A stretch of DNA of 24,172 bases, from the IMG/VR virus record IMGVR_UViG_3300044591_001813, positions 1 through 24,172 of that record. The stretch is one strand, 5' to 3'. The stretch's first letter is position 1. Each line of letters begins with the position of its first letter. This stretch comes from a virus. Below are positions 124-17,763 of this stretch, piece after piece. The notes under the pieces were generated by a model that worked only from the letters and a program-made list of their open reading frames with translations, was not told where the DNA came from and made no database searches. Position numbers and translations under genes: made by a program.

Positions 124-160
124 CTGTACTACTACAAGGTCGGCGGCTGTATTAGTACAG
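124..160. repeat. 8-bp inverted repeat CTGTACTA/TAGTACAG
   Basis: Perfect arms at 124-131 and 153-160, separated by 21 bases. The right arm overlaps the stop codon of the - strand gene ending at 152, so on that strand it would form a stem at the very 3' end of the message. It may be a transcript-end hairpin. The equivalent place in the second copy of the module (near 1079) has no obvious counterpart. Confidence 0.4.
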
Positions 161-334
161 CTTGTTTAACAGTGTTGTATGTTTATCTAGTGACTCTTCC
201 CAGTATTTAGCACTAATGGGTTGTTGTAAATCATTAGACATTTGTATGTAAGTTTTAATGTTATCAATCTTATCTAACAAAGCAATGCGAATAGTGGCAA
301 GCTCGTTATTGTCAATGTCTTTGAGGTTATTCAT
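152..334 (-). CDS. Small hypothetical protein, paralogue of the gene at 1079-1282
   Basis: Sixty residues, no recognised domain. It aligns without gaps to the protein of 1079-1282 over about 48 residues, sharing D, R, A-L, I, I-K and the block S-x-K-Y-W, which shows the two are duplicates. It is predicted to be mostly helical and charged, consistent with a small phage accessory or host-interaction protein, but nothing shows its role. The ATG at 334 lies 14 bases after the stop of the upstream gene (349-561), so the two are probably co-transcribed; no convincing promoter of its own is visible. Its 3' end abuts an inverted repeat and the first hairpin plus C/G tract. Confidence 0.65.
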   Translation of the reverse strand: MNNLKDIDNNELATIRIALLDKIDNIKTYIQMSNDLQQPISAKYWEESLDKHTTLLNKLY

Positions 335-348
335 GTATTGTTTTATTA

Positions 349-561
349 TTAAAGTTGGTTAAGACGATACCCAGTACGAATACAGACTTGACCATATTGT
401 TCTTGTATTGCGAGCCAGTATCTAGTGTAGTCTCCAGTTGACAAACCCTTCGGATAAACGATAGGCGTGTTGTTTTCGTTCTTACCCTTAAACACAGTAA
501 GAACATATTTACGAATACCGCTCTTGTCAGTAAAACTAATAACTTTAGTAGTTTGAGTCAT
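349..561 (-). CDS. Small hypothetical protein (70 aa)
   Basis: Seventy residues beginning MTQTTKVISF, rich in beta-prone residues, basic toward the C-terminus, with no recognised domain. It starts at an ATG at 561 with no Shine-Dalgarno sequence. Upstream on the - strand a TAGAAA box, 17 bases, and TTATAA end 5 bases before the ATG, a weaker version of the leaderless arrangement seen for the neighbouring genes. A 7-bp hairpin (583-600) overlaps this promoter. The gene at 152-334 follows 14 bases downstream, suggesting a two-gene unit. Codon use is A/T-richer than in the neighbour at 609-797. Confidence 0.6.
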   Translation of the reverse strand: MTQTTKVISFTDKSGIRKYVLTVFKGKNENNTPIVYPKGLSTGDYTRYWLAIQEQYGQVCIRTGYRLNQL

Positions 562-608: not shown

Positions 609-797
609 TTAGTACTTCCTGTTGAACTCCAATTCGTAGATCTCACGACCGTACTTCGCAGTGACCGCCTCGCACTCGTCCTCGGTGAGTTCCCGATCCA
701 ACACCGTGCTGAATGCGCTGGTCACATACGCCACCGTCGAGGTGCCGCCGTCCACTTCGATGTCCACCAAGTCCGTCCAATCAATTTCAATCTTCAT
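609..797 (-). CDS. Small acidic hypothetical protein (62 aa)
   Basis: Sixty-two residues beginning MKIEIDWTDL, acidic, with no recognised domain. GC is clearly higher than in the gene at 349-561, with many C- and G-ending codons. The start at the ATG at 797 is supported by a promoter on the - strand: TTGACG (832-827), 17 bases, TAAGCT (809-804), then exactly 6 bases to the ATG, implying a leaderless transcript. The small size, acidity and own promoter resemble early phage genes that target host proteins, but this is inference from context only. Confidence 0.65.
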   Translation of the reverse strand: MKIEIDWTDLVDIEVDGGTSTVAYVTSAFSTVLDRELTEDECEAVTAKYGREIYELEFNRKY

Positions 798-803
798 GCG
801 TAC

Positions 804-832
804 AGCTTACAGGCGGAGTCGCGACCCGTCAA
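804..832 (-). promoter_or_regulatory. Sigma70-like promoter, leaderless, for 609-797
   Basis: On the - strand: TTGACG (832-827), 17-base spacer, TAAGCT (809-804), 6 bases, ATG. An A-rich stretch about 10-25 bases upstream may act as an UP element. The identical spacing in front of four other genes of the block makes this more than chance. Confidence 0.65.
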
Positions 833-861
833 ATCTTTTGTGCAGTTTTTTTCAAGAATCT

Positions 862-873
862 TTGACTAGTCAA
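862..873. promoter_or_regulatory. 12-bp perfect palindrome TTGACTAGTCAA
   Basis: A perfect palindrome 30 bases upstream of the -35 box of the gene at 609-797, in a 280-base intergenic region. It is a plausible operator for a dimeric regulator. A second palindrome (ACCTAG-ACA-CTAGGT) follows at 898-912. Confidence 0.4.
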
Positions 874-897
874 TGGGCGGTACTAACTACAGCCTGG

Positions 898-912
898 ACC
901 TAGACACTAGGT
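898..912. promoter_or_regulatory. Palindrome ACCTAG-ACA-CTAGGT
   Basis: A perfect 6-bp inverted repeat with a 3-base centre, between the divergent promoter of 609-797 and the + strand promoter at 938-967. The CCTAG/CTAGG word also occurs in the operator-like pair at 2107-2149. Confidence 0.35.
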
Positions 913-937
913 ACTCAAAAATAGTTTGCGAAAAGTG

Positions 938-967
938 TTGACAACGCGCACGGGTCGAGGGTACAAT
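938..967 (+). promoter_or_regulatory. Sigma70-like promoter facing right
   Basis: TTGACA (938-943), 18 bases, TACAAT (962-967): a full consensus -35 and a five-of-six -10. Transcription would start near 973-975, inside a 10-bp inverted repeat (968-990), and run into the second C/G tract and hairpin, towards - strand genes. No credible + strand protein follows, so it may make a small structured RNA or an antisense transcript to the gene at 1079-1282. Confidence 0.55.
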
Positions 968-990
968 GGGGTATCCCAAGGGGATACCCC
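968..990. promoter_or_regulatory. 10-bp inverted repeat over the predicted start site
   Basis: GGGGTATCCC (968-977), AAG, GGGATACCCC (981-990): a perfect stem. It begins directly after the -10 box of the rightward promoter and covers the expected transcription start. This suits a repressor site or a 5' hairpin on the RNA. Confidence 0.5.
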
Positions 991-993
991 CCT

Positions 994-1026
994 CCCCCCC
1001 CTGGGGGGGGGGGGGGGGGGGGGGGG
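994..1026. repeat. C8/T/G24 homopolymer palindrome
   Basis: C8 (994-1001), one T, then G24 (1003-1026), preceded by further C-rich sequence (987-992). This is the second copy of the C-run/G-run arrangement at 40-78, with the same GAGCA right flank. Exact length is uncertain for the reasons given for the first copy. Confidence 0.6.
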
Positions 1027-1037
1027 AGCAGCTTCCA

Positions 1038-1054
1038 TGCCAAGGGGGTTGGCA
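1038..1054. promoter_or_regulatory. Hairpin TGCCAA-GGGGG-TTGGCA (copy 2)
   Basis: A 6-bp perfect stem with the same five-G loop as the hairpin at 89-107, 12 bases after the second G tract. It is followed by a shared CTGCTGTG-like word and by the paralogous gene ending at 1079. Together with copy 1 it defines a duplicated module of about 90 bases plus a gene. Confidence 0.6.
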
Positions 1055-1078
1055 CGGATCTTGCTGTGCCTTATTGTA

Positions 1079-1282
1079 TTACCATACTGGCTTACTGTTA
1101 TTATCTAGTACATCAACAGCGTTTGTCGCTGATACCATCTCGTCTTGCCAGTATTTAACAGAATCTTCTGCATTATGCTGTCGTGCAACAGCCAATTCTC
1201 TTTTGATAAACTCAATTCGGTGTGACAAAGCAAAGCGCAAAACAAACTTAGTTTCGCTGTCGAGTTCGATATTGTATTTCAT
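1079..1282 (-). CDS. Small hypothetical protein, paralogue of the gene at 152-334
   Basis: Sixty-seven residues beginning MKYNIELDSE. The ATG at 1282 is chosen over a TTG at 1327, because the intervening codons are a (AAC)n repeat and translate to poly-Asn. It is homologous to the protein at 152-334 (ungapped match, including S-x-K-Y-W), and both genes end next to the same hairpin and G tract. Upstream, CTAACA (1317-1312), 17 bases, CACAGT (1294-1289) and 6 bases precede the ATG, matching the spacing of the other genes though with weak boxes. The -35 overlaps the stop of the gene at 1314-1517. Function unknown. Confidence 0.65.
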   Translation of the reverse strand: MKYNIELDSETKFVLRFALSHRIEFIKRELAVARQHNAEDSVKYWQDEMVSATNAVDVLDNNSKPVW

Positions 1283-1288
1283 GTTGTT

Positions 1289-1317
1289 ACTGTGGTTGTT
1301 GTTGTTGTTGTTGTTAG
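1289..1317 (-). promoter_or_regulatory. Weak leaderless-type promoter with AAC-repeat spacer
   Basis: CTAACA (1317-1312), 17 bases made almost entirely of AAC repeats, CACAGT (1294-1289), 6 bases, ATG at 1282. The boxes match consensus poorly but the spacing equals that of four better promoters nearby. The AAC repeat could change length by slippage and so alter promoter spacing. Confidence 0.4.
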
Positions 1318-1517
1318 ATAGTGCCAACCAATTCCATCATCCAAGAGTCGCGACGTTCGTCAAACCAGATGTTCGCCTCGGCCTTTTCGGCCTCGGTGAG
1401 TTCCATCGGCTCACCGCCCCAAGACTCAGGGATCGGTCCCGTGAAGTCTTCGATGCGGAGCGCGATCATGTCGCTCAGGTTGCTCTCGGCGCTGATGTTG
1501 GCGAAGTCGTTCGTCAT
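1314..1517 (-). CDS. Small acidic hypothetical protein (67 aa)
   Basis: Sixty-seven residues beginning MTNDFANISA, acidic, with several Trp and Met residues and no recognised domain. GC is higher than in the head and sugar blocks. The ATG at 1517 is fixed by a well-spaced promoter: TAGACA (1552-1547), 17 bases, TAACTT (1529-1524), 6 bases, ATG. There is no room for a ribosome-binding site, so the message is probably leaderless. Its stop codon overlaps the -35 of the next gene (1079-1282). It is likely an early phage accessory protein by context only. Confidence 0.65.
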   Translation of the reverse strand: MTNDFANISAESNLSDMIALRIEDFTGPIPESWGGEPMELTEAEKAEANIWFDERRDSWMMELVGTI

Positions 1518-1523
1518 GTTGTT

Positions 1524-1552
1524 AAGTTAGGGTAGAAACTCTTTTCTGTCTA
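1524..1552 (-). promoter_or_regulatory. Leaderless promoter TAGACA-N17-TAACTT
   Basis: On the - strand, with an A9 tract plus a further A8 tract immediately upstream of the -35, like an UP element. The A-tract and -35 segment are the same in the promoter at 1721-1749, giving a shared 20-base word on the two sites. Six bases (AACAAC) separate the -10 from the ATG. Confidence 0.7.
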
Positions 1553-1570
1553 CTTTTTTTTTACTTTTTT

Positions 1571-1714
1571 TTACCTGACCTTCAGCCTCTCGAAAACGTC
1601 ATTGGTCTCGTTCAGAACCTGAGTTAGAACCTTGTCGCAGAACTCGCGCCACTCGGTCTCGGTGATTTCGTTGTTCTGGAACTTGCGGAACATGATCGCG
1701 TACTCGTTTGTCAT
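1571..1714 (-). CDS. Small hypothetical protein (47 aa)
   Basis: Forty-seven residues beginning MTNEYAIMFRKF, highly charged and probably helical, with no recognised domain. The reading frame is supported by G/C-ending codons and by a promoter that fixes the ATG at 1714: TAGACA (1749-1744), 17 bases, TAAGGT (1726-1721), 6 bases, ATG. The stop at 1571 is followed at once by the A-tract of the next gene's promoter. Its size and layout match the other single-gene units in this block. Confidence 0.65.
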   Translation of the reverse strand: MTNEYAIMFRKFQNNEITETEWREFCDKVLTQVLNETNDVFERLKVR

Positions 1715-1720
1715 GGTGTT

Positions 1721-1749
1721 ACCTTAGTGGATGCGGCGTTTTCTGTCTA
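1721..1749 (-). promoter_or_regulatory. Leaderless promoter TAGACA-N17-TAAGGT
   Basis: On the - strand, with A8 directly upstream of the -35 and 6 bases (AACACC) between the -10 and the ATG at 1714. It shares the A-tract plus TAGACAGAAAA word with the promoter of the gene at 1314-1517. Confidence 0.7.
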
Positions 1750-1768
1750 CTTTTTTTTCAGACTTTTT

Positions 1769-2008
1769 TTAGACCTCAACCATCATCCCGTTGTTGTTGC
1801 GGAAGTAGTTTCCGCTGGTGCTGCGCTTGGGCATCGGGGCGAAGTCAACCGTTTTCGCAGGAACCACCACGCTGATGTTGGCGATTGCTTCCGCCTCAGT
1901 CTTGCCGTGGGACACACCCGTCGTGCCGTCCGCCTTGCGGTACGTCACACCAACCAAAGCCACCGTCTTGAACTTGCTCACCTTCAGAATCGCAATCTCG
2001 TTTTGCAT
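1769..2008 (-). CDS. Small hypothetical protein (79 aa)
   Basis: Seventy-nine residues beginning MQNEIAILKV, beta-rich with a Gly/Thr-rich centre, no recognised domain. The ATG at 2008 is preferred to an in-frame GTG at 2014, because a promoter (TTGACG 2043-2038, 17 bases, CATAGT 2020-2015) places the -10 exactly 6 bases before the ATG, as in the neighbouring genes. It is the first gene of the - strand block and borders the regulatory region at 2044-2541. Moderate GC, unlike the A/T-rich genes to the right. Function unknown. Confidence 0.65.
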   Translation of the reverse strand: MQNEIAILKVSKFKTVALVGVTYRKADGTTGVSHGKTEAEAIANISVVVPAKTVDFAPMPKRSTSGNYFRNNNGMMVEV

Positions 2009-2014
2009 GGACAC

Positions 2015-2043
2015 ACTATGGGTCAGAACTCGGTCAGCGTCAA
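2015..2043 (-). promoter_or_regulatory. Leaderless promoter TTGACG-N17-CATAGT
   Basis: On the - strand in front of the gene at 1769-2008, with two A-tracts 15-35 bases upstream (plus-strand T runs near 2057-2073). The GTGTCC hexamer separates the -10 from the ATG. Confidence 0.65.
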
Positions 2044-2197: not shown

Positions 2198-2241
2198 GAA
2201 AAAAAAGTTCTTGTTTTTTCTGCTGTAACGGGGGGGGGAGG

Positions 2242-2541
2242 CTATTCTCAATCTCTCAACTCATTTTATTCTATCTTATATATTCTCCAATATACCTAAC
2301 TAATATATTATATTCATATTATATATTTACCTATTCATATATTAATATCATCTTATATCCATTATTTATATCTTCTTCTTATTATCTCAATAACAACACA
2401 ACCCATACCCCCCCCTTTTTCTAAAAATAAAACATAAACAAGCCATAATCCCCTATAAAAAACACAAAAAAAATCCGACCCATATATTTTTCAAAACAAA
2501 AATAATAAAAAACAAGTATTTAAGACATATAATATACTATA
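2242..2541 (+). other. G-depleted A/T/C tract, no gene
   Basis: There is no G on the + strand from 2242 to 2441 (200 bases), and only four G (2442, 2477, 2516, 2524) up to the ATG at 2543. It is flanked by a G9 run (2230-2238) on the left and contains a C8 run (2408-2415). No open reading frame of note is present. It sits between the leftward block and the rightward genes. Such strand-asymmetric, easily melted DNA would suit an unwinding element, a single-strand binding region or an unstructured leader; none of these is shown. Confidence 0.6.
2528..2541 (+). promoter_or_regulatory. A/T-rich late-type box TATAATATACTATA
   Basis: It ends one base before the ATG at 2543 and is almost identical to the box at 21317-21330 (TATAATATAGTATA). 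No -35 is evident. It may be a phage-specific promoter for the sugar operon; see also 9934, 10712, 20057, 21745 and 22035. Confidence 0.45.
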
Positions 2542-2542
2542 A

Positions 2543-2899
2543 ATGTCTACAAAGATCTGCCGCAACTGTAAAAACGAAAAAGATATAAGTGAATTTCCAT
2601 TCTTTTCTACAAGCGATGCTGGCAGAAAGAACACTTGTAAATCTTGTAATAACGAACTCAGTTCATTGCGCCGAAACCTACGCTCTCAAAACCCCCCTCC
2701 TATTCCCGGCAACTGCCCAATTTGTAACAATTATACGACTACATGGATATTAGATCATTGTCACTTTGATAATGCATTTCGCGGATATATATGTAATAGC
2801 TGTAATTTAGGTATTGGGCGCTTTAATGATGACGTTAATATTTTACATAAAGCTATAGAATATCTTAATAAAAATACAATTATAGAGTACCATATATGA
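2543..2899 (+). CDS. Recombination endonuclease VII family (HNH-type) protein
   Basis: A 118-residue protein. The N-terminal part carries two Cys-x2-Cys pairs (CRNC, CKSC) like a zinc ribbon. The C-terminal part has CPIC, the LDHCH core, an RGYICNSCN block and the acidic FNDD, as in the T4 endonuclease VII (gp49) family of Holliday-junction resolvases and HNH nicking enzymes. In T4 that enzyme resolves branched DNA before packaging; in other phages, short relatives are free-standing homing-type nucleases. The stop overlaps the next ATG (ATGA), so it is the first gene of the sugar operon. A mobile nuclease is therefore as likely as a resolvase. Confidence 0.8.
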   Translation: MSTKICRNCKNEKDISEFPFFSTSDAGRKNTCKSCNNELSSLRRNLRSQNPPPIPGNCPICNNYTTTWILDHCHFDNAFRGYICNSCNLGIGRFNDDVNILHKAIEYLNKNTIIEYHI

Positions 2900-5800
2900 A
2901 GGTCTTGTATATTACGCCGCATCTATCTACTGGCGGCGCACCTCGCTATCTGCTAGAAAAAATTAAGCTATTAAATGATTCATGTGATATATATTGCATA
3001 GAATATATAGACATTACTGGCGGTGTTCTTGTCGTTCAGAAATCCGAGATTCAAAAGCTTTTAGGAAATAAATTAATAACAATAGGTGAAGACAAAAATC
3101 AAATATTAAAAGAAATAAGTCACATAGCCCCCGACATAATTCATTTTGAAGAGATGCCAGAATATTTTTGCGATTACGAAGTCGCTAAAGCAATATATAA
3201 TCCTGATCGTAAATATAAAATTTTCGAAACATCTCATGACAGCAGTTTTGACGCAAAGAATAAATTATTTTTCCCCGATAAGTTTCTGTTCGTCAGCGAG
3301 TATCAAAGACAAATGATGAAGTCTATAGATATTGATTCAGAAGTCGTGGAGTTTCCTATAACATATAAAAATAAGTCTAATAGATTAGACGCTTTAAAAA
3401 AACTAAATCTTGATTCTAATCTTGTACATATTATTAATGTAGGACTATTTACGCCACGCAAAAATCAAAAAGAATTAATAGAATATGCGCGAAAACTAAC
3501 GAACTTACCAGTGCAGTTTCATTTTATTGGTTCGTTAGCTGATAATTTTAAGTATTACTGGGAGGACGCTATAAAAGACTTGCCGCCAAACTGCAAAATT
3601 TGGGGCGAGCGTCATGATGTGGATAATTTTTATGATGCCGCAGATTTATTCTTCTTTGCATCAAGAGGTTTCGAGCATGATAAGGAAACAAGTCCATTAG
3701 TAATTAAAGAATGCATAGGTTGGAAACTGCCTATTTTATTATATAATTTGCCCGTTTATTGTAACATGTATGATAAATACGATAATATGATATTTTTATC
3801 TATGGATAAAGATATTAATACTGATACTCTTAAAAATAAGATTATTTCAGTATATGATGAAGTCGTTGGTAAATATATAGATAGTTCTCATTATAGATTA
3901 GATTTTACAAAAGAAGATGGTAAGTTTTGGTTGTGGTGTAATGATAATCCAATCAATAACGAAGAAGTGCGATTACATATTGTATTAAAAGATGTAGATT
4001 CATTGGCGACTTTTTATTCTATTAAAAATCAAAAGTTTACAAAAAATTCAGCTACTTGGATTATGCCGATGGCTCCACAAGTTAATTTTGCTGAAATAGA
4101 AGATTTAAGAGGTTATGTGGTTGATTTCTATGATCTGAATTATAAGCTTTTGTTTAGTAAAGAATTTTTTATAAAGAATACCGCTAAACATCCAGATAAA
4201 ATAGAATTCGCGCTTAATAATCCTTTTGATAGAACGTTTTGGAATTATCAAGAATTTTTTGTATTTAAGAATCTTGAACGAGAGTTTCCAACATTGAATC
4301 TAAATAATTTAAATATAGTTTTAGATCTTGGAGCCAACAATGGAATCTTTATCGAAAAAATGTTGCGGAATGGAACTAAGAGAATTTACGGTTTTGAACC
4401 AAGTCCTAATGCTTTATCTAATCTTTTGCATAGATATGAATCAAATAATAAAGTAACTATTATTAATAAAGCTGTTAGCGATAAAACTGGAAAAATGACT
4501 TTCCATTATCATCCTGATAATTCTACTATTAGCGCTTTTGATAAAAGTCATATTATTGAACATTTGCCTGAGAATGAGATTATCTCTTTTGATGTTGATA
4601 CGATAAGATTGGATGAGTATTGTGACTCGCAAAATATTAATGATATTGATTTACTTAAAGTTGATGTAGAAGGCGCGGAGTATTCAATACTTCATTCTTT
4701 AGATAATAAATTTTTTGACAAAGTAGATAACCTTTTAATTGAAATACATGAAAATAGAAACAATGAAGCTAAAAATCTTGTCGTTTACTTAAGAAGTCTA
4801 GGTTTTAAAATAGAACATTTTGCCATAGGTCAAGCTCCTTGCGAAGAAGAAAAGCTTTATGGATCTGTAATTGGTATGTTCTTAGCTATAAACCCAAAGC
4901 GAATTAAGACAACAAAAGAAAATAAAATAAAAGCAGCTATTGTTACAGATGTATTCTTTCATTCAGAAATAAATTACAACAACTTTATTCAATATGCTAA
5001 TAACATGAAAAAAACTGGTTTGCCAATATTGTTGATGACTAATTCTAAATTTGATTCTTCTATTTTAGATTATGTAGATTATTTAATTTATGATAAAGAG
5101 AATAGACTTTTTGAATATGATTACAAAGATTATAAAACTTTGTATTTATTCTTTGCATATAAAAATCTTCGATTTGAAGCGCCAACAATAGGAAAACAAA
5201 AACACGGTTTATCTGTTTTATGTAATTTTTATAGATCTTTGATTTTTCTAAAAAGTTTAGATTATACTCACATAGTAAAAACAGAAGCCGATTGTTTTAT
5301 AGGCGATACTGATAAAATCAATAAAGACCTGCAAACTTTATTAAATACAAATAAAAAGGGTTTAATATATTTACATAATGATAATGGAGATTTATTTACT
5401 TCTTATCATATTATGTATTTTGAAATCGATTTCTTATTGTCTTTGTTTCCTAAAATGAATAACGAAAAAGATTATCTTGATTATATAAATTCTGAAAAAT
5501 TTTTATCAGCCGAAGAGTTGTTAACTAATATAGTTTATAGTAAAAAAGATCAGTTAATAATTAAAAATAGCGATTTAATTTTCACTGATTACGGAAAAAG
5601 TGATTGGAATAAAATAGTTTCTCCCATTGAAAGTGATAAATTAATTAATGGATCTATACCTAATATCTTTAAGATATGTGAAAATGGAATTTTTTCTGAA
5701 ACCTCTTTTGTTATAGCTTTATTGGATATGTGTCATGGGCAGAAGGAAAATATTTGTGAATTTATAATAGATAATGGAAAAGATATTAAATCTTATAATT

Positions 5801-5952
5801 TCAAAGTGAATAAAGATATTTGCTGCGCTTACGAAACAATTAAATTTGACAAAAATCCTATTAAAATAACTATCATAAAAGATAGTTTTACAAAAACATT
5901 TGAAATAAAAGATTTATCAGATATCGAAAATGTTTTGAAAATTAATTCATGA
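2896..5952 (+). CDS. Three-domain glycosyltransferase / FkbM-like methyltransferase fusion
   Basis: This 1018-residue protein has three parts. Residues about 1-330 form a GT-B, GT4-like glycosyltransferase (STGGAPRYLLEK near the N-terminus, NVGLFTPRKNQ about 180-190, and an acidic-x7-E-like SPLVIKECIGWKLP segment near 265). A beta-rich linker (about 340-440) follows. Residues about 470-650 are a SAM-dependent FkbM-type methyltransferase (VLDLGANNG at about 475, FEPSP near 500, LLKVDVEGAEY near 585). Residues about 690-1018 look like a GT-A glycosyltransferase, with KTEADCFIGD near 793 as the probable metal-binding acidic motif. It probably adds and O-methylates sugars on one glycan chain, in the cytoplasm of the infected cell. 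It overlaps both neighbours by 4 bases. Substrate unknown. Confidence 0.8.
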   Translation: MKVLYITPHLSTGGAPRYLLEKIKLLNDSCDIYCIEYIDITGGVLVVQKSEIQKLLGNKLITIGEDKNQILKEISHIAPDIIHFEEMPEYFCDYEVAKAIYNPDRKYKIFETSHDSSFDAKNKLFFPDKFLFVSEYQRQMMKSIDIDSEVVEFPITYKNKSNRLDALKKLNLDSNLVHIINVGLFTPRKNQKELIEYARKLTNLPVQFHFIGSLADNFKYYWEDAIKDLPPNCKIWGERHDVDNFYDAADLFFFASRGFEHDKETSPLVIKECIGWKLPILLYNLPVYCNMYDKYDNMIFLSMDKDINTDTLKNKIISVYDEVVGKYIDSSHYRLDFTKEDGKFWLWCNDNPINNEEVRLHIVLKDVDSLATFYSIKNQKFTKNSATWIMPMAPQVNFAEIEDLRGYVVDFYDLNYKLLFSKEFFIKNTAKHPDKIEFALNNPFDRTFWNYQEFFVFKNLEREFPTLNLNNLNIVLDLGANNGIFIEKMLRNGTKRIYGFEPSPNALSNLLHRYESNNKVTIINKAVSDKTGKMTFHYHPDNSTISAFDKSHIIEHLPENEIISFDVDTIRLDEYCDSQNINDIDLLKVDVEGAEYSILHSLDNKFFDKVDNLLIEIHENRNNEAKNLVVYLRSLGFKIEHFAIGQAPCEEEKLYGSVIGMFLAINPKRIKTTKENKIKAAIVTDVFFHSEINYNNFIQYANNMKKTGLPILLMTNSKFDSSILDYVDYLIYDKENRLFEYDYKDYKTLYLFFAYKNLRFEAPTIGKQKHGLSVLCNFYRSLIFLKSLDYTHIVKTEADCFIGDTDKINKDLQTLLNTNKKGLIYLHNDNGDLFTSYHIMYFEIDFLLSLFPKMNNEKDYLDYINSEKFLSAEELLTNIVYSKKDQLIIKNSDLIFTDYGKSDWNKIVSPIESDKLINGSIPNIFKICENGIFSETSFVIALLDMCHGQKENICEFIIDNGKDIKSYNFKVNKDICCAYETIKFDKNPIKITIIKDSFTKTFEIKDLSDIENVLKINS

Positions 5953-6887
5953 AAATAGTACATACTCATACAGGATTATTACCGATACCGCCAAACGGAT
6001 GGGGTGCCATTGAGAAGTTAATATGGTTTTATCACACGCATTCATTAAATAAAGGTTATATTAGTGAAATAAGATATACCGATGATATTAAAAAAAATGA
6101 ATTTGATATTGTTCATGCTCATGTAGGTAATCTGGCTAACATCTTGCACGAAAGAAATATTCCTTATTTTTTTAGCATGAATGATCATCATGCTTATTTA
6201 TATGGAAAAGATTCTTCTACTTTTAAAGAAAATTATTTAGCTGCAAAAAATTCTATTCATACATTCGTGTCTGCAAAATTTCTTGTGGACTATTTTGACC
6301 TGCCTAATGTTAGTTATTTATCTTTGGGGGTTGATAATTCATTTTTTAAACCTAGAAACGATACTAAACAACATAAATTATTGTGTGTTGCTAATAATGG
6401 TTTTGGTCATGATAGTAGCGAAGATAGAAAGGGATTTTCTTACGCTATAGAAGCGGCAAGAAGATTAGAAATGCCAATAACTATTGCTGGTCCAAAAAAT
6501 AATAAAAAATTTTTTGATAGAATGAATGTTCAATATGATAAATTGGAAATTCGTTATGATTTAACAGAACAACAATTATTAGAAACATATCAAGAACATA
6601 CTATTTTTATACACCCTTCTATATTAGAAGGTGGGCATCCTAATTTAACTCTATTAGAAGCGCAAGCTTGTGGATTAATAGTTTTAGCTACATTTGAAAA
6701 GGATAATGATTTAAAGGGATTAATCAGAATTGATAGAAATCATAGATTGATAGCAAATAAAATTACACAAGCTATAGAAAACTATGATTATTTTAAGAAA
6801 ATCACTTTAGAATCTGCTTTAGAAAATGATTGGTCAATGGTTGTAGACAAAATTATGGATACATATAAAAATAAATTAAAACAATGA
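5949..6887 (+). CDS. GT4-family glycosyltransferase
   Basis: A 312-residue GT-B enzyme. It begins with MKIVHTHTGLLPIPPNGWGA, the N-terminal Gly-rich loop typical of GT4; FDIVHAHVG follows near residue 55. The C-terminal nucleotide-sugar half shows LCVANNG, the IAGPKNN segment, and the hallmark EGGHPNLTLLEAQACGL near 230-245, where the two acidic residues flank the donor-binding helix. It transfers a sugar from an NDP-sugar to an unknown acceptor. It is translationally coupled to both neighbours by ATGA overlaps and has no ribosome-binding site of its own. Confidence 0.82.
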   Translation: MKIVHTHTGLLPIPPNGWGAIEKLIWFYHTHSLNKGYISEIRYTDDIKKNEFDIVHAHVGNLANILHERNIPYFFSMNDHHAYLYGKDSSTFKENYLAAKNSIHTFVSAKFLVDYFDLPNVSYLSLGVDNSFFKPRNDTKQHKLLCVANNGFGHDSSEDRKGFSYAIEAARRLEMPITIAGPKNNKKFFDRMNVQYDKLEIRYDLTEQQLLETYQEHTIFIHPSILEGGHPNLTLLEAQACGLIVLATFEKDNDLKGLIRIDRNHRLIANKITQAIENYDYFKKITLESALENDWSMVVDKIMDTYKNKLKQ

Positions 6888-8080
6888 AAGAACAATTACT
6901 AAAAAATTATTTTAGAACTCCTTTTAAAATTCAACCAGTTAAAAAACAAAAAAATATAATTAACATTGGATTTCAGAATGGTCCTTTTATAGAAATATTA
7001 GGTCCAAATAATGAAAAATATGAAATAGCATTTGAAGATACTAGAAATGGATCGTTAGTTCATTCTTCTACGATTAGAAATAATATGTGGACATCATGCA
7101 ATGTAAAATACTATGTCCCTTGGAAAATTAAAATAAAGTCGCAATCAAGTTATGATGAAATTAATGTTAATTTAAAAAATGAAAGAGTATGTATCGTAAA
7201 TGAATCTGGCTCTATAGGTGATACTGTAGCTTGGATGGACGCTGTTGATAAATTTCAAAAGAAACACGATTGTATTATTGATTATTATTCTACGCTGCCA
7301 AACATTTTTGATAAAATCTATTATAAAAATATTAACTTTTTTAATTTTTCTGAGGTTAATACAAATAAATATACTTATGTTTATAAAATAGGTTGCTTTC
7401 GTCCGTTTGGTCCAAATGCAAACTGTAGTAAAGATTGGCGCGAATTGTCTCTTGGAGATGTGGCTAATGAAATTCTAGGATTACCGTATGGTTACAATCC
7501 ACCAGAACTGATTAAACAAAAAACAAAAAATAATAAAAAAACAGTTTGTATAGCTACTCAAAGTACGGCGCAAGCTAAATATTGGAACAACGATTCTGGA
7601 TGGCAACAAACTGTAGACTATTTGAAAAGTTTAGGATATGAAGTGATATGTATAGATAAAGATAAAAGCTTCGGTTCTGGAAAAAATTTTAATACAATTC
7701 CAAATAACTGTATTGATAAAACTGGTAATTTATCTTTTGAAGATAGAATTGAAGATTTATATAATTGTGATTTTTTCATTGGTTTAGGATCTGGACTTTC
7801 TTGGTTAGCTTGGGCATGTAAAAAACCAGTTATTTTAATTTCAGGATTTTCAAATCCTAAATCTGAATTTTTTACTAAATATAGAGTTCATAATGATAAA
7901 GTTTGCAATAGTTGTTGGAATAATAAGAAGTATGAATTTGACGCTGGTGATTGGTTGTGGTGTCCAGAGCATAAAAATGATGATAGAATTTTTGAATGTT
8001 CGAAAGAAATTACATTTGACATGGTTAGAGAAAAAATTAATAATTGCATAAAAGATTTAGCAAATGAAAACTTTAATTAA
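6884..8080 (+). CDS. TibC/Aah-type protein O-heptosyltransferase homologue
   Basis: This 398-residue protein resembles the bacterial autotransporter heptosyltransferase family, which transfers heptose from ADP-heptose to Ser residues of repeat proteins. A beta-rich N-terminal domain (about 20-90, with NGPFIEILG and a later NNMW) precedes a GT9-like fold: ESGSIGDTVAWMDAV near 106-120, STAQAKYWN, and the FFIGLGSGLSWLAWACKKPV block near 302-320. A four-cysteine cluster, C341-x2-C344-x15-C360-x11-C372, matches the iron-finger arrangement of TibC. It is part of the ATGA-coupled operon. The next gene is a shorter paralogue. The acceptor may be the Ser/Thr-rich repeat protein at the right end (inference). 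Confidence 0.78.
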   Translation: MKEQLLKNYFRTPFKIQPVKKQKNIINIGFQNGPFIEILGPNNEKYEIAFEDTRNGSLVHSSTIRNNMWTSCNVKYYVPWKIKIKSQSSYDEINVNLKNERVCIVNESGSIGDTVAWMDAVDKFQKKHDCIIDYYSTLPNIFDKIYYKNINFFNFSEVNTNKYTYVYKIGCFRPFGPNANCSKDWRELSLGDVANEILGLPYGYNPPELIKQKTKNNKKTVCIATQSTAQAKYWNNDSGWQQTVDYLKSLGYEVICIDKDKSFGSGKNFNTIPNNCIDKTGNLSFEDRIEDLYNCDFFIGLGSGLSWLAWACKKPVILISGFSNPKSEFFTKYRVHNDKVCNSCWNNKKYEFDAGDWLWCPEHKNDDRIFECSKEITFDMVREKINNCIKDLANENFN

Positions 8081-8915
8081 TTTTGTAACTCATAGTTTAG
8101 GTGATAATATTGCATTTTCTATATATGGAGATGCGTATCAAAAAAAATATGGTGGAACTGTTTACGTTAAAACCAAGTGGAAAGATCTATTTGTTTCAAA
8201 TAATCCAAATGTATTTTTTGTGGATTTAGATTATTCTGATACTTTTGATGTGACAAAGGACGTTCATTTCGTATTCAGAGAAGGTCCTATGCAAAAAATA
8301 GCTTGTGATGCTTTGGGTCTAGATTATGAAGAAATTATACCATTAATTAATACATATAGTAAGCACTGTTTTAATAAAAAGAAAAAATATGTTTGTATAA
8401 GCGTTCATTCAACTAGTCAAATGAAATATTGGAATAATAGTGTTGGTTGGCAAAAAGTTGTACGTTATTTAAAAAAATTAAATTATGATGTTTATGTTAT
8501 TGATAAAGATGAAATGTTTGGTTTGAAAGGAAAATGGAATAAAATTCCTGATGGAGCTATAAATGAAACAGGCAACTATCCTATAGACTATAGAATTCAA
8601 CAGATAAAAAATTGCGCTTTTTTTATAGGACTTAGCAGTGGTTTGTCATGGTTAGCTTGGGCTTTGAATAAAAAAGTAGTTATGATATCAGGTTGCACAA
8701 ATCAAGATAATGAATTTTCTAAGAATTGTTATAGAGTAATTAATGATAATATTTGTCATGGTTGTTTAAATGATAGTTCAATAGACAATGTTAATGGAAT
8801 ATTAAGTCATTGGATGTATTGTCCTAGAAATAAGAATTTTGAATGCTCAAAAGAAATATCTTTTGAAATGGTTAAAGAAAAAATAGATCAATGCATTAAA
8901 GACTTAAATAAGTAA
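8064..8915 (+). CDS. Second TibC/Aah-like heptosyltransferase paralogue, short form
   Basis: A 283-residue protein, clearly a paralogue of the preceding gene: it shares STSQMKYWNN, VIDKDEMFG, the FIGLSSGLSWLAWA block and the SKEISFEMVKEKI end. It lacks the N-terminal beta domain and begins directly in the catalytic region (THSLGDNIAFS). The four-cysteine motif is retained as C231-x2-C234-x18-C253-x7-C261. It overlaps the upstream gene by 17 bases and its last 28 bases overlap, tail to tail, the - strand gene at 8888-9934. The two may act as partners with different acceptor preference or as successive enzymes. An alternative is a lipopolysaccharide-type heptosyltransferase. Confidence 0.75.
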   Translation: MKTLINFVTHSLGDNIAFSIYGDAYQKKYGGTVYVKTKWKDLFVSNNPNVFFVDLDYSDTFDVTKDVHFVFREGPMQKIACDALGLDYEEIIPLINTYSKHCFNKKKKYVCISVHSTSQMKYWNNSVGWQKVVRYLKKLNYDVYVIDKDEMFGLKGKWNKIPDGAINETGNYPIDYRIQQIKNCAFFIGLSSGLSWLAWALNKKVVMISGCTNQDNEFSKNCYRVINDNICHGCLNDSSIDNVNGILSHWMYCPRNKNFECSKEISFEMVKEKIDQCIKDLNK

Positions 8916-9934
8916 TCGTAATAGTTACATTGTTGTTCTATAGTGAATCTTGATAGAGCGTTTTTATAACAATTTTCAGGATTAATAATTTTATCTATAT
9001 TTTGCGCTGCGTAAATCATATCGTTTAAGCTAAAACATCTCAATCCTGTTTCTCCTTGTAAAACAGTTTCAGTAAAACCGCCAAAGTTTGTTGTTATTGT
9101 AGGGGTGCCTGAGAACTGAGATTCTATCACTGTCCAATTACAAGGCTCGGTGAATAACGAAGGAGCAAATAAAAATTTTGCATCGCTTAATAAATGCATT
9201 CGTTGTGTGGGATCGACGAAGCCTGCAAATTTACAATATTTAGTATCTTTAAGATTTAAGATATTTGGTCCTGCAAAAATTATATCTTGTCCTATATGAT
9301 TGCAAATATCATAAGCTAATTTAGCTCCTTTATCTTCAATAATTCTACCTAAAAATAATGCTGTATTTGATTTTTCTTTTTTGTATAAAAAATCATCAGG
9401 ATCAAAACCGGGATAAACTACAAATTCAGATCCTAAACTAACTGATGTTACAGAATGTCCGTGCATTTTGTGCATTTGAGCGTGTGTCTCAAATATTTTA
9501 ATTGGCGCGAACATACTATCATATCCAATACTTGGTTCTACTACAATAGCTTTATTATAAAAATGTTTAACACATGGTTCGTGAGCAAATCCAAACCAGC
9601 ATAATATAAATTCGTTATTTGATTTTATTCTTTTATTTAATTCAATAATACAATTGTTATTAAATATTTTTACAGCTTCTGTATTTACACTTTGATCAAA
9701 TCCTTTAGTCTTCCAATCATTTAAGTTGCCATAACTGTTTTTTAATATATCATTATTAATAACATTAATATGTTCTGTGCAGTTAACAATAGAATCTTCA
9801 TGACCATAATGATAAACAGTATGTCCTCTTTTTGTCATTTCGTCACAGAATTTGTAAACCTTTTGAACAAACGCGCATAATGAAATATTTTTGTTAGTTG
9901 GCGAATAAGGTACGCTCAAGCAGTGAAAAACCAT
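8888..9934 (-). CDS. GT4-family glycosyltransferase (opposite strand)
   Basis: A 348-residue GT-B enzyme with an N-terminal MVFHCLSVPYSPTN loop, a central FLGRIIEDKGAKLA segment typical of the start of the donor domain, IFAGPN, and APSLFTEPCNWTVIESQFSG, in which the two acidic residues and the helix following them match the GT4 E-x7-E region; GGFTETV and GETGLR follow. It is the only convincing - strand gene to the right of 2541 and converges on the heptosyltransferase pair, overlapping by 28 bases. It diverges from the PhoH-like gene across a 27-base gap holding a nearly palindromic A/T box. It probably works on the same glycan as the + strand cluster. Confidence 0.82.
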   Translation of the reverse strand: MVFHCLSVPYSPTNKNISLCAFVQKVYKFCDEMTKRGHTVYHYGHEDSIVNCTEHINVINNDILKNSYGNLNDWKTKGFDQSVNTEAVKIFNNNCIIELNKRIKSNNEFILCWFGFAHEPCVKHFYNKAIVVEPSIGYDSMFAPIKIFETHAQMHKMHGHSVTSVSLGSEFVVYPGFDPDDFLYKKEKSNTALFLGRIIEDKGAKLAYDICNHIGQDIIFAGPNILNLKDTKYCKFAGFVDPTQRMHLLSDAKFLFAPSLFTEPCNWTVIESQFSGTPTITTNFGGFTETVLQGETGLRCFSLNDMIYAAQNIDKIINPENCYKNALSRFTIEQQCNYYDYLFKSLMH

Positions 9935-9947
9935 ACAATATAGTGTA
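9934..9947. promoter_or_regulatory. Shared divergent box TACAATATAGTGTA
   Basis: It lies in the 27-base gap between the divergent genes at 8888-9934 and 9962-10711. Its outer TACA/TGTA arms make it nearly the same on both strands, so it could serve as a two-way promoter. It resembles the TATAATATA(G/C)TATA boxes before other genes. Confidence 0.4.
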
Positions 9948-9961
9948 ACTGAATAAATAAC

Positions 9962-10711
9962 ATGTCAACCAAAAAGAAAAGAATTCCAAAGGAAAAAGAA
10001 GACATCAAACAAAATATTGATGAAAATCATCTTAAACTTGTTAGATTAAATATTAAAGACTTTAAATTGACAGATAAACAAAAAAGTTTCGCTCAGATAG
10101 CTTTTGACAAGAATACTAAAATTATTTTTATCAATGGTCCCGCTGGAAGCTCTAAAACTTTCTTGGCTGTTTATTGCGCTTTGCACATGTTAAATTCAAA
10201 TCCAAAATCAGAAATCAAATATATTCGTACTATAGCTGAATCTGGAGAAAGAGCTTTGGGATCTTTGCCGGGGACTGTAGATGAAAAGTTTAATCCATTT
10301 ATGATGCCTCTTTATGATAAATTAGATGAATTATTGCCAATGTCTCAATCAAAATATTTAGAAACGAATGGTTATATTGAAGCTCTTCCTATTAATTTTC
10401 TAAGAGGCGCGACTTGGAATGATAAAATTATCATCGCAGATGAGTCTCAAAATTATAGTAATAAAGAATTGGTAACTCTTTTGACTCGTATTGGTGAAGG
10501 AACAAAAATGTTTATTTGTGGAGACGCAATGCAATCAGATATTGGTAACAAATCTGGTTTTATGAGAATATACGATCTATTTAATAATAAAGAAAGCGAA
10601 GAGCGCGGTATTTACTGTTTTCAATTTGACGAAGAAGATATTATGCGTAGCGAAATATTAAAATATATTGTAAGTATGTTCAAGAAATTAGATAAAACAA
10701 ATACACACTGA
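9962..10711 (+). CDS. phoH: PhoH-like P-loop ATPase
   Basis: A 249-residue protein with a Walker A motif INGPAGSSKT (about 57-66), a Walker B motif IIADESQN (about 155-162), and the RTIAESGERALGSLPG segment between them that characterises PhoH proteins. The length is typical of phage PhoH. These proteins are common in marine and other environmental phages and resemble the helicase-like ATPase half of PhoH2. Proposed roles include RNA handling and phosphate stress, but the phage function is unsettled. The gene opens the packaging and late-regulation block, and the zinc-ribbon gene follows 11 bases after its stop. Confidence 0.88.
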   Translation: MSTKKKRIPKEKEDIKQNIDENHLKLVRLNIKDFKLTDKQKSFAQIAFDKNTKIIFINGPAGSSKTFLAVYCALHMLNSNPKSEIKYIRTIAESGERALGSLPGTVDEKFNPFMMPLYDKLDELLPMSQSKYLETNGYIEALPINFLRGATWNDKIIIADESQNYSNKELVTLLTRIGEGTKMFICGDAMQSDIGNKSGFMRIYDLFNNKESEERGIYCFQFDEEDIMRSEILKYIVSMFKKLDKTNTH

Positions 10712-10717
10712 TATAAT
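10712..10717 (+). promoter_or_regulatory. TATAAT box 5 bases before the ATG
   Basis: A perfect TATAAT ending 5 bases before the ATG at 10723, in the short gap after the PhoH-like gene. The spacing suggests a leaderless transcript for the zinc-ribbon and sigma-like genes. Confidence 0.4.
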
Positions 10718-10722
10718 ACAAT

Positions 10723-11127
10723 ATGAGTAACATTTACTGTTCAAATTGTGGAACAAAACACGTTCTTGGTTCAAAATTTTGCACAAGTTGTGGCAATTCT
10801 CTAGGGGGATTTAATAATGTAAACAAGCCAACTTTGCAAAACCCAATTCAGAAAAGAAATATTTCTCGCGCTCAAACTTCTGAGGTAGATGAAGACGGCA
10901 TTCCAACAACATTCGTAAGACCTTCCAAATTATCATACGAAATTGAAAAGCCAGCAGGCAATAAATATTCAGGTAAAGATTTATTTAATGCTGCACCAGT
11001 AGATCTTAGTGAAAGAGTGGTATCTAGGCCAAATTCTAATTATAGAAGATTGAGTAAAGAAGAATTTTTAAGTCAATCTTTAAAGGAGTGTAGTTCGCGC
11101 CCAATCCAAGATATTGATGAATCGTAA
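10723..11127 (+). CDS. Zinc-ribbon protein of unknown function
   Basis: A 134-residue protein. The N-terminal 25 residues form a zinc ribbon with two Cys-x2-Cys pairs (YCSNCG and FCTSCG), the common zf-ribbon of many small regulatory proteins. The rest is hydrophilic, low in recognised structure, and rich in Ser, Lys and Pro. It overlaps the sigma-like gene by 11 bases and has its own TATAAT box upstream. Being next to the sigma-like gene, it could help RNA polymerase or late transcription, but that is position only. Confidence 0.72.
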   Translation: MSNIYCSNCGTKHVLGSKFCTSCGNSLGGFNNVNKPTLQNPIQKRNISRAQTSEVDEDGIPTTFVRPSKLSYEIEKPAGNKYSGKDLFNAAPVDLSERVVSRPNSNYRRLSKEEFLSQSLKECSSRPIQDIDES

Positions 11128-11830
11128 AAAGAAAAAATTTGAAGACATGTATGAAACGATTGACCAAGTAATCAAAAAGCGAAAAAATAAATGGAAGTTA
11201 AAAGCGATTACTTGGTTTGATTTTGAAGATATTGAACAGATTATAAAAGTTCATATCTATAAGAAATGGCATTTATGGGATCAATCGCGAGCTATTGAGC
11301 CTTGGGTGAATCGCATAGTTACAAATCAGATTAGAAATATAATCCGTAATAATTATACTAGCTTTGCAAGACCGTGTTTATCTTGTCCATTTAATCAAAA
11401 TAAAGAAGGCGATTCTGGCGCTGAAATGTCTTGCGGATTTACTACAAATGGAAAGCAATGCAATGAATGTCCATTGTACGCCAAATGGGAAAAGATAAAA
11501 AAATCAGCATACGATGTAAAAATAACAGTTAGTTTAGAAAATCATAAAAATTATTTTCTGAATGTTGAATCAACAATTAATCATGATTACAAATTAGCAG
11601 AAAATAAATTGCATGATTTAATGAAAAATTCTTTAAGTGATAAACATTATTTTATTTATAAAATGTTTTTTGTGGATAATTTGACTGATGATCAGGTTGC
11701 TAAAATTTTGAAATTTAAGACATCGGAAAAGGGTAGAAAAGCGGGTTACAAGCAAATAAAAAATTTAAAAAAAATGTTGTATATTAAGGCTCAAAATTTA
11801 TTAAAAGACAACGATATATTCTCTTCTTAA
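11117..11830 (+). CDS. Sigma-like transcription factor with cysteine cluster
   Basis: A 237-residue protein. The ATG at 11117 is chosen over the adjacent TTG at 11114. Residues about 35-80 match sigma70-family region 2: an acidic FDFEDIEQI helix, an aromatic-basic stretch (KKWHLWDQ) and a PWVNRIVTNQIRN helix as in ECF-type factors. Next comes an unusual cysteine-rich insert (CLSCPF, C, CNECPLY, about 86-117) that probably binds zinc. The C-terminal LTDDQVAKILKF helix and following basic helices resemble region 4. This would be a phage factor directing host RNA polymerase to late promoters, like T4 gp55, which recognises A/T-rich -10-only promoters. Such boxes precede several genes in this window. 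Confidence 0.7.
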   Translation: MNRKKKKFEDMYETIDQVIKKRKNKWKLKAITWFDFEDIEQIIKVHIYKKWHLWDQSRAIEPWVNRIVTNQIRNIIRNNYTSFARPCLSCPFNQNKEGDSGAEMSCGFTTNGKQCNECPLYAKWEKIKKSAYDVKITVSLENHKNYFLNVESTINHDYKLAENKLHDLMKNSLSDKHYFIYKMFFVDNLTDDQVAKILKFKTSEKGRKAGYKQIKNLKKMLYIKAQNLLKDNDIFSS

Positions 11831-11831
11831 T

Positions 11832-12902
11832 ATGTTAACAGACGACAATAAAGCATTTATTTTAAGAAAAATTAATGAAGGTATACAAGATTATGTTGTA
11901 TTAGCTAATCTTGTTTTTAATCGTGAAGATCTGACTGGCAGAGCTAAAGAAGCTAAGGTTGTAAGAGATTTTTTAATCTCAACTGGTTTCTCTAAGAAGC
12001 AAGAAAAGCCAAAGCCAACGCAGACAGTAGAAATACTATCAAAAGAAAATTGTGAATTTATTGATCAAAATATAAAAACAGGAATCACACCAAGACAAGT
12101 TACAGAACTAATATTTCATGAAAAGTTTGTAGGCGTTGAGAATTTAAATATTTTTATTACAGCAGAATATCGCGCTGTTCAAAGATATATTAAAGAAAAA
12201 TATCCAGATCATTTAGTAGATAACGAATCTGGGGTTGGAGATAAGTATTCAGTACCCCGTTCTATCAAAACTGTAATAAATAAAGCTAATAAATGGTGCG
12301 GCCAAAATATTTCTGAAGAAAAGTTATCTCTACAGCATAGAAAATGCATGGAGAAACTATTAACTTATTTATCTAGTCCACGATTTGTTGGTAACTATGA
12401 TTCTTATAACAGTTCTACAGACAAAGAGTTATTCGAAGCGGAGTTTGTTAGATCTGTGTGGGATAAACCAGATCTCACGATTGATGAAATTAATTTATAC
12501 ATAAATGTATGCATGGATTATATTAATCTACGGCAGATCGATATAAAAAAGAATAAGATAAATGACATGTTCAATGAGACGCAAGATCAAAAAGATTTTA
12601 CCATGCGTCTAACTGAAGTTCTTAAGACTATCTCTGAAGAATATAATCAATGTGCTGGTCGTATTGATAAAAGCATTCAGAAGCTGAATGGTGAACGCTC
12701 AAAGAGAGTGGAACAAACGCATCAGAAGAACGCTTCTATCCTTAATCTTGTAGAACTGTTCCAAGATGAGCAAGAACGCAAGATGATGATACAGATTGCT
12801 GACATGCAAAAGAGAACAATTAAGGAAGAAGCTGATAGATTAGAGAGTATGTCTTCATGGAAATCTAGAATTTTAGGAATTTCTAAAGAAGATGCTATAT
12901 GA
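11832..12902 (+). CDS. Hypothetical protein in the terminase-small-subunit position
   Basis: A 356-residue protein with no recognised domain. The N-terminal part contains two similar helical units (each an FI-x-I-x2-GI pattern: ILRKINEGIQD and FIDQNIKTGITPRQV), followed by YRAVQRYIKEKYPD; these could be helix-turn-helix-like DNA-binding repeats. The C-terminal half, from about residue 240, is long, charged and probably coiled-coil (around QKLNGERSKRVEQ and DEQERKMM). DNA-binding repeats plus a helical oligomerisation region just upstream of the nuclease and TerL would fit a small terminase subunit, but no family match can be claimed. The stop overlaps the next ATG (ATGA). Confidence 0.6.
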   Translation: MLTDDNKAFILRKINEGIQDYVVLANLVFNREDLTGRAKEAKVVRDFLISTGFSKKQEKPKPTQTVEILSKENCEFIDQNIKTGITPRQVTELIFHEKFVGVENLNIFITAEYRAVQRYIKEKYPDHLVDNESGVGDKYSVPRSIKTVINKANKWCGQNISEEKLSLQHRKCMEKLLTYLSSPRFVGNYDSYNSSTDKELFEAEFVRSVWDKPDLTIDEINLYINVCMDYINLRQIDIKKNKINDMFNETQDQKDFTMRLTEVLKTISEEYNQCAGRIDKSIQKLNGERSKRVEQTHQKNASILNLVELFQDEQERKMMIQIADMQKRTIKEEADRLESMSSWKSRILGISKEDAI

Positions 12903-13858
12903 TTCAGTGTAAAGTCTGTAGCGAGTCTTATAATAATGATAAATCTTTTCATGCTCATTTAAAAAAGCATAATCTTTATCAAGCGGAGTATTATTGTAAA
13001 TATTATCCAAGATATTCTCTTTATTATCGTCAACAAATACCTTTTAAGAATAAGAAACAATATTTTGAAACAGAGTTTCTTGATTATACAGAATTTTTGA
13101 AGTGGGAGGCTGCATCTAATGAGGAAACAGTCAAAACAAAATGTATTGAATTACTAAAGAAGAGAATTGATGAAAAACAATATCATTTTGCGCCATTTCA
13201 TAACGAGTTGATTACTCTTAATCTGCCAAGTTTAAATATTTATAAGAAATATTTTAATTCATACACAGGCGCGTGTAAGCTACTAAATATTGAACCTCTA
13301 TATAATAAAAATTTGCCAGAAGCTTTTAATAAAACAAATGTATCTCATTTACCTATCTTAGTTGATACAAGAGAGCAGGATGCTTTGGAGTTTCCTAAAT
13401 CTAAAATTGAGAAAATATTCGTAGGCGATTATTTAATTGCTGATAAAAAGTATTTTACTAATACTTTCGTTGATAGAAAAAGTGAATCTGACTTTCTTGG
13501 CACGATGGCTTCTGGAATAGAAAGATTTGAAAGAGAATTAATTAAAGCCGTTGAATTAAATTGTTATTTATTTGTGGTTGTTGAGTCTAGCATAAATAAT
13601 ATTTTAATCAACCAGCGCAAGTATAATAGAAAAACAAATTTAGAATATGTTTTTCACAATATGCGTAACTTATGTCATAAATATCCTAGACATATTCAGT
13701 TTATATTTACAGGAAGCAGAAATAAATCTTTAGATATTATACCTAAATTATTGTATCATGGTAAGTCACTGTGGCAAGTAGATATTCAATATTTTTTAGA
13801 CAATGAGCTGGGAAACAGGCAATCAAGCATTAAGGAAGTCGCAGTTAATTTCCAATGA
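12899..13858 (+). CDS. C2H2 zinc finger plus ERCC4-type nuclease
   Basis: A 319-residue protein. Residues 4-24 form a classical zinc finger (C4-x2-C7-x12-H20-x3-H24). The middle region is uncharacterised. From about residue 150 an ERCC4/XPF-type nuclease domain is clear: LVDTREQD (about 153-160), VGDYLIADK (about 174) and FVDRKSESDF (about 189-198), giving the D-x-R-E, GD and (E/D)RK-x3-D metal-binding residues of structure-specific endonucleases that cut branched DNA. The gene overlaps TerL by 56 bases and the upstream gene by 4. A role in trimming branches or the packaging end of concatemers is suggested by its place. Confidence 0.78.
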   Translation: MIQCKVCSESYNNDKSFHAHLKKHNLYQAEYYCKYYPRYSLYYRQQIPFKNKKQYFETEFLDYTEFLKWEAASNEETVKTKCIELLKKRIDEKQYHFAPFHNELITLNLPSLNIYKKYFNSYTGACKLLNIEPLYNKNLPEAFNKTNVSHLPILVDTREQDALEFPKSKIEKIFVGDYLIADKKYFTNTFVDRKSESDFLGTMASGIERFERELIKAVELNCYLFVVVESSINNILINQRKYNRKTNLEYVFHNMRNLCHKYPRHIQFIFTGSRNKSLDIIPKLLYHGKSLWQVDIQYFLDNELGNRQSSIKEVAVNFQ

Positions 13859-15668: not shown

Positions 15669-15678
15669 AAGTTAAAAA

Positions 15679-15695
15679 GTCACTTTTAAAGTGAC
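15679..15695. repeat. Hairpin GTCACTTT-T-AAAGTGAC
   Basis: A perfect inverted repeat in the 47-base gap between TerL and portal, followed by AATGTGTAACT and then the portal ATG. It has no U run after it, so a regulatory site or mRNA processing hairpin is more likely than a terminator. Confidence 0.45.
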
Positions 15696-15715
15696 AATGT
15701 GTAACTATTATTAAC

Positions 15716-17752: not shown

Positions 17753-17763
17753 AATTTAATATT

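Follow-up and report, generated by a model that had tools for sequence, protein, structure and literature searches.

The window (the whole stretch analysed; 24,172 nucleotides, IMG/VR record IMGVR_UViG_3300044591_001813) represents a tailed-phage fragment with genes for terminase, PhoH, endonuclease VII, a collagen-like tail fibre and glycosyltransferases. Positions 609–2043 hold five small genes on the minus strand, with two further small genes 3' of them (Table 1). Searches of Pfam and PHROGs with the five small genes gave no significant family; Rfam and tRNA searches were empty. G+C content is 48% in the small-gene region (1–2200) versus 25–32% in the adjoining module (2200–18,000), a step also seen in relatives. 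Two 81-base direct repeats, at 40–120 and 988–1068, combine C-run/G-run stems with a GTGCCAA-GGGGG-TTGGCAC hairpin; elements of this kind recur between the early genes in relatives, and the ends of many contigs lie nearby.

Table 1 Features of the small-gene region, with promoter words given 5' to 3' on the minus strand.
Feature	Positions	Strand	Description	Basis or relatives
Gene 1	1769..2008	-	79 aa, MQNEIAILKV...; ATG 2008	15 IMG/VR relatives
P1, putative leaderless promoter	2009..2043	-	-35 TTGACG 2043-2038, N17, -10 CATAGT 2020-2015, 6-base discriminator	
A-tracts 5' of P1	2048..2064	-	UP-element-like register	sequence, positional profile
Gene 2	1571..1714	-	47 aa, MTNEYAIMFRKF...	ORF
P2, putative leaderless promoter	1715..1749	-	-35 TAGACA 1749-1744, -10 TAAGGT 1726-1721	
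A-tracts 5' of P2	1754..1770	-		
Gene 3	1314..1517	-	67 aa, MTNDFANISAES...	20 IMG/VR relatives
P3, putative leaderless promoter	1518..1552	-	-35 TAGACA 1552-1547, -10 TAACTT 1529-1524	
A-tracts 5' of P3	1557..1573	-		
Gene 4	1079..1282	-	67 aa; (ACA)n leader; without own -35/-10; probably second gene of P3 unit	
Hairpin-rich intergenic element after gene 4	988..1078	-	C/G runs; possible terminator or insulator	RNA fold z = -4.3
Gene 5	609..797	-	62 aa, MKIEIDW...	8 IMG/VR relatives
P5, putative leaderless promoter	798..832	-	-35 TTGACG 832-827, -10 TAAGCT 809-804	
A-tracts 5' of P5	837..853	-		
Small gene 3' of gene 5	349..561	-	AT-rich leader (TTTATAAATAAC-ATG), without -35; probably co-transcribed with gene 5	
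Small gene 3' of gene 5	152..334	-	60 aa; AT-rich leader, without -35	

The original prediction had placed a promoter of one fixed geometry before each of the five genes. All five hexamer pairs, their 17-base spacers and the 6 bases to the ATG are present, as are the A-tract and -35 word said to be common to P2 and P3; the fixed geometry stood for the ATGs at 2008, 1714, 1517 and 797 and fell for that at 1282 (CTAACA/CACAGT). In the -10 of gene 1, C replaces T at position 1 (CANNNT). The pattern TWGACR-N17-YANNNT-N6-ATG occurs four times in the window (genes 1, 2, 3 and 5), whereas 100 dinucleotide shuffles averaged 0.06 and never reached 4; in this comparison, proposed together with the prediction, the geometry is commoner than in shuffled sequence.

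Relatives were retrieved with the small proteins as queries, and most contigs were read over their full length. A scan of 24 contigs, with spacers of 13–21 and discriminators of 0–20 and a site counted if it opened at least 40 codons, placed 16 non-redundant sites at a 17-base spacer with a 6-base discriminator and 0–3 at all other combinations, although independent origins must number fewer than 16, since the likeness of P2 and P3 and the displacement of P2 in one relative (L012, below) make the promoter copies partly kin. Among 80 non-redundant early-ORF starts, picked from 26 related IMG/VR contigs without a promoter criterion, 16 had the (17,6) geometry and other spacings reached at most 2; 300 shuffles gave a mean of 0.06 and a maximum of 1 at (17,6), a significance that is overstated because the sites are partly related by descent. 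The sigma70 spacing thus has a single peak, at spacer 17 and discriminator 6.

A scan of IMG/VR for an A-tract followed by TTGACG-N17-TANNNT-N5-CATG found at least 119 places, at least 80 of them opening 40 or more codons, versus 33 places in all and 9 opening 40 or more codons for a 10-base control, discriminators of 6 and 10 being the two compared (one control offset). Among the matches listed, many unrelated phages carry the 6-base geometry with an A-tract. Three other phages (L155, L132, L151) have two or three promoters of leaderless geometry each, with a -10 that is mostly TATAAT or TATACT; those of their genes that were tested had no cultured-phage match.

Gene 1 keeps the geometry at 15 loci, gene 3 at 20 and gene 5 at 8. 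Identity among these orthologues is 100% at -10 positions 1, 2 and 6 and 59–72% in the spacer, whose length is unchanged. The hexamers of P1 are almost invariant in 15 relatives (spacer 72% identical); in P3, TANNNT is invariant in 20 relatives, with spacer and upstream sequence diverged. The geometry is retained even in phages with a terminase about 39% identical to that of the window, and the gene 2 protein type stands under a like promoter also in G009, G017 and L119. In L012 the promoter of gene 2 stands before the gene 3 orthologue, and ATG-NNN-AAC-GA is the opening of several different small genes; together these suggest that promoter and start region have been exchanged as one piece.

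Conservation also bears on the annotated starts. For gene 1 the predicted start at 2008, and not 2014, is supported: the ATG at 2008 is invariant, and the codon at 2014 is GTG, CTG, TTG or ATG in relatives. The move of the gene 4 start from 1327 to 1282 likewise holds, the upstream TTG being out of frame in 5 of 8 relatives. By the same reasoning the ORF at 7661 of G018 should start at the ATG at 7700, which would give a gene 3-like protein (MVINASPEISAEDNLRDLIAL). The geometry helps to correct the start codons of tiny genes, which gene finders overlook or make too long.

The proposed promoter of gene 4 was rejected on the evidence of the relatives: its '-35' CTAACA lies inside an (ACA)n tract of varying length among 8 relatives, so that the word slips out of register, and the A-tract is absent too. 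Gene 4 is probably better read as the second gene of the gene 3 unit, the gap between the two being 31 bases. The genes at 349–561 and 152–334 come after gene 5 without a conserved promoter and, with gene 4, form a second class with AAC/AAT-rich leaders. The claim that the units are single-gene was not borne out: these three genes lack a promoter, and no terminator-like hairpins are visible between genes 1, 2 and 3. With gene 4 behind gene 3, two genes behind gene 5 and no hairpin among genes 1–3, read-through is likely; the array thus consists of successive promoters whose transcription units overlap, rather than of separate units with one gene each, with gene 4 probably read from P3 and the last two genes from P5. 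The second-position genes 1079–1282, 152–334 and L065 (G018, 7865–8068) appear to be paralogues from a single family of coiled proteins (..LRxALxxRIxxI....YW...), and their leaders are rich in AAC/AAT.

Phased A-tracts (about -52 and -42), C at -1 and exclusive use of ATG were not part of the original prediction. The class was aligned on the ATG with 17 sites, the rejected gene 4 site (without A-tract) included. A-tracts are located at -56..-49 and -44..-40 from the ATG; at least 5 consecutive A are present in 15 of the 17, compared with 5 of the 63 remaining starts, and C stands at -1 in 17/17 versus 19/63. Position -12 is T in 15 of the 17; -11 is always A and -7 always T. Counted from the transcription start, the A-tracts of the E. 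coli UP-element consensus occupy -57..-54 and -44..-41 (PMC5664571), and the base preceding mycobacterial transcription starts is most often C (PMC3898074). The tracts match this E. coli register and are read as putative UP elements. A-tract register and C at -1 would therefore put +1 at the A of the ATG without recourse to the -10, and a start there gives a leaderless mRNA. GTG, TTG and CTG starts were checked and none had the geometry, which agrees with the dependence of E. coli leaderless mRNA on AUG mentioned in PMC3898074. The 6 bases are all that lies between -10 and ATG, with no Shine-Dalgarno site upstream; such sites are nearly absent phage-wide and rare also before larger genes.

In all likelihood, then, the early array carries UP-element promoters for host sigma70, with the start codon at +1, leaderless mRNAs and downstream genes co-transcribed; the predicted leaderless transcription is upheld by sequence and conservation for genes 1, 2, 3 and 5 and withdrawn for gene 4. 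Positions 609–2043 of the minus strand would be part of the early (host-takeover) region of an uncultured phage, mostly of freshwater, which is our reading of the IMG sample numbers. Four small genes would each have a complete host sigma70-type promoter, ordered as two phased A-tracts (UP element), -35 (TTGACR/TAGACA), N17, a YANNNT-type -10, the 6-base discriminator and C at -1. The A-tracts may bind alpha-CTD; host RNA polymerase would start at A+1 and make mRNAs beginning with AUG, on which ribosomes would initiate without a Shine-Dalgarno site. Genes 1079–1282, 349–561 and 152–334 would follow on the same transcripts by way of short AAC/AAT-rich leaders.

Directly observed are the sequence elements, the fixed register, conservation, exclusive ATG starts and absence of Shine-Dalgarno sites. 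A transcription start 1–3 bases 5' of the ATG would give an identical picture. That the promoters are real sigma70 promoters from which transcription begins 1–4 bases before the ATG, leaving a very short leader, is nevertheless unlikely: spacings such as 16/6 or 17/7 seem to be used in this region by some relatives, but C at -1 everywhere and A at +1 form the dinucleotide at which transcription preferably starts, and the position of the A-tracts agrees with +1 being the A of the ATG. Bacterial transcription starts 5–9 bases past the -10 are common, which counts for such a leader.

Descent alone, with the promoter-like words as duplicates of one ancestral 5' module without common function today, is highly improbable; P2 and P3 are similar in sequence and the promoter-plus-start module is swapped between genes 2 and 3 in L012, yet the hexamers, the lengths of spacer and discriminator and C at -1 were retained as the spacer sequences drifted apart, and the geometry also stands before non-homologous small genes. 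Chance matches in AT-rich sequence do account for the gene 4 site; as an account of P1, P2, P3 and P5 they are refuted by the shuffles and by all other spacings (at most 1–3), and their probability as a general explanation is negligible.

Among the known systems closest to the proposed leaderless array are the TA-led leaderless genes in Actinobacteria and Deinococcus-Thermus (Zheng 2011 PMC3160421; Cortes 2013 PMC3898074; Zhong 2025 PMC12340547). TANNNT about 12 bases 5' of the start codon marks leaderless genes in bacteria (PMC3160421), and the principle of leaderless -10-adjacent promoters is known from there (PMC3160421, PMC12340547). Common to both are TANNNT with its first T about 12 bases before the start codon, absence of a Shine-Dalgarno site, a transcript expected from the start codon and C favoured at -1. 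Unlike TA-led genes, the phage array always has a strong -35, an invariant 17-base spacer and A-tracts (M. tuberculosis leaderless genes have no conserved -35), and is a phage early array with ATG starts only.

A single leaderless phage transcript is that of lambda cI; a sigma70 promoter abuts the AUG in both, but cI is one gene per genome, whereas here the module is repeated along the early region. Phage transcripts are often leaderless, according to a remark in PMC5312081. E. coli UP-element promoters (PMC5664571) share the order of A-tracts (about -57..-54 and -44..-41), -35, 17-base spacer and -10, from which the phage differs in having an A-tract but no T-tract in the distal part, and a start codon at +1. 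New, as read from the sequence, is that a complete putative UP/-35/-10/C-1 module recurs along an early array and is preserved in a group of phages. Accounts of leaderless translation usually concern isolated phage genes or the cellular genes of particular phyla; an array conserved to the exact base, together with enrichment of its geometry in front of ORFs in other viral contigs, suggests that leaderless expression is a common early strategy.

No cultured-phage relatives were found for the early DNA, gene 1, the 678-aa protein or the 390-aa late-module protein, and terminase matches to cultured phages were of only about 22–28% identity. Host leads from gene association were contradictory or weak, and no host is claimed: the glycosyltransferases nearest to 8888–9934 are almost all in Synechococcus phages; G015 carries a GP88 domain; terminase relatives lie in MAG contigs labelled Halobacteriovorax, Flavobacteriaceae and Verrucomicrobiales. 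Two other glycosyltransferase genes (2896–6887) have their nearest matches in the 735-kb uncultured phage LR756501, with 45–47% identity to its proteins in the aligned parts.

A wider joint reading, possible though rather doubtful, is that the phage group almost dispenses with Shine-Dalgarno initiation, using early leaderless UP-element promoters, internal AAC/AAT-rich leaders and late GTGTAA, with early promoter and start region moving as a module between small genes; as part of it, and held just as tentatively, late GTGTAA 8–14 bases 5' of the ATG would also give leaderless or near-leaderless mRNAs. Taken by itself, GTGTAA is likely a late promoter element with a near-leaderless layout. Many late-module genes have it 8–14 bases 5' of their start codon (it was counted in 32 of 145 upstream regions, roughly 18-fold more than expected), with examples upstream of the ATGs at window positions 9962 and 15716 and of structural genes of relatives; in several cases it stands directly 3' of a terminator-like hairpin.
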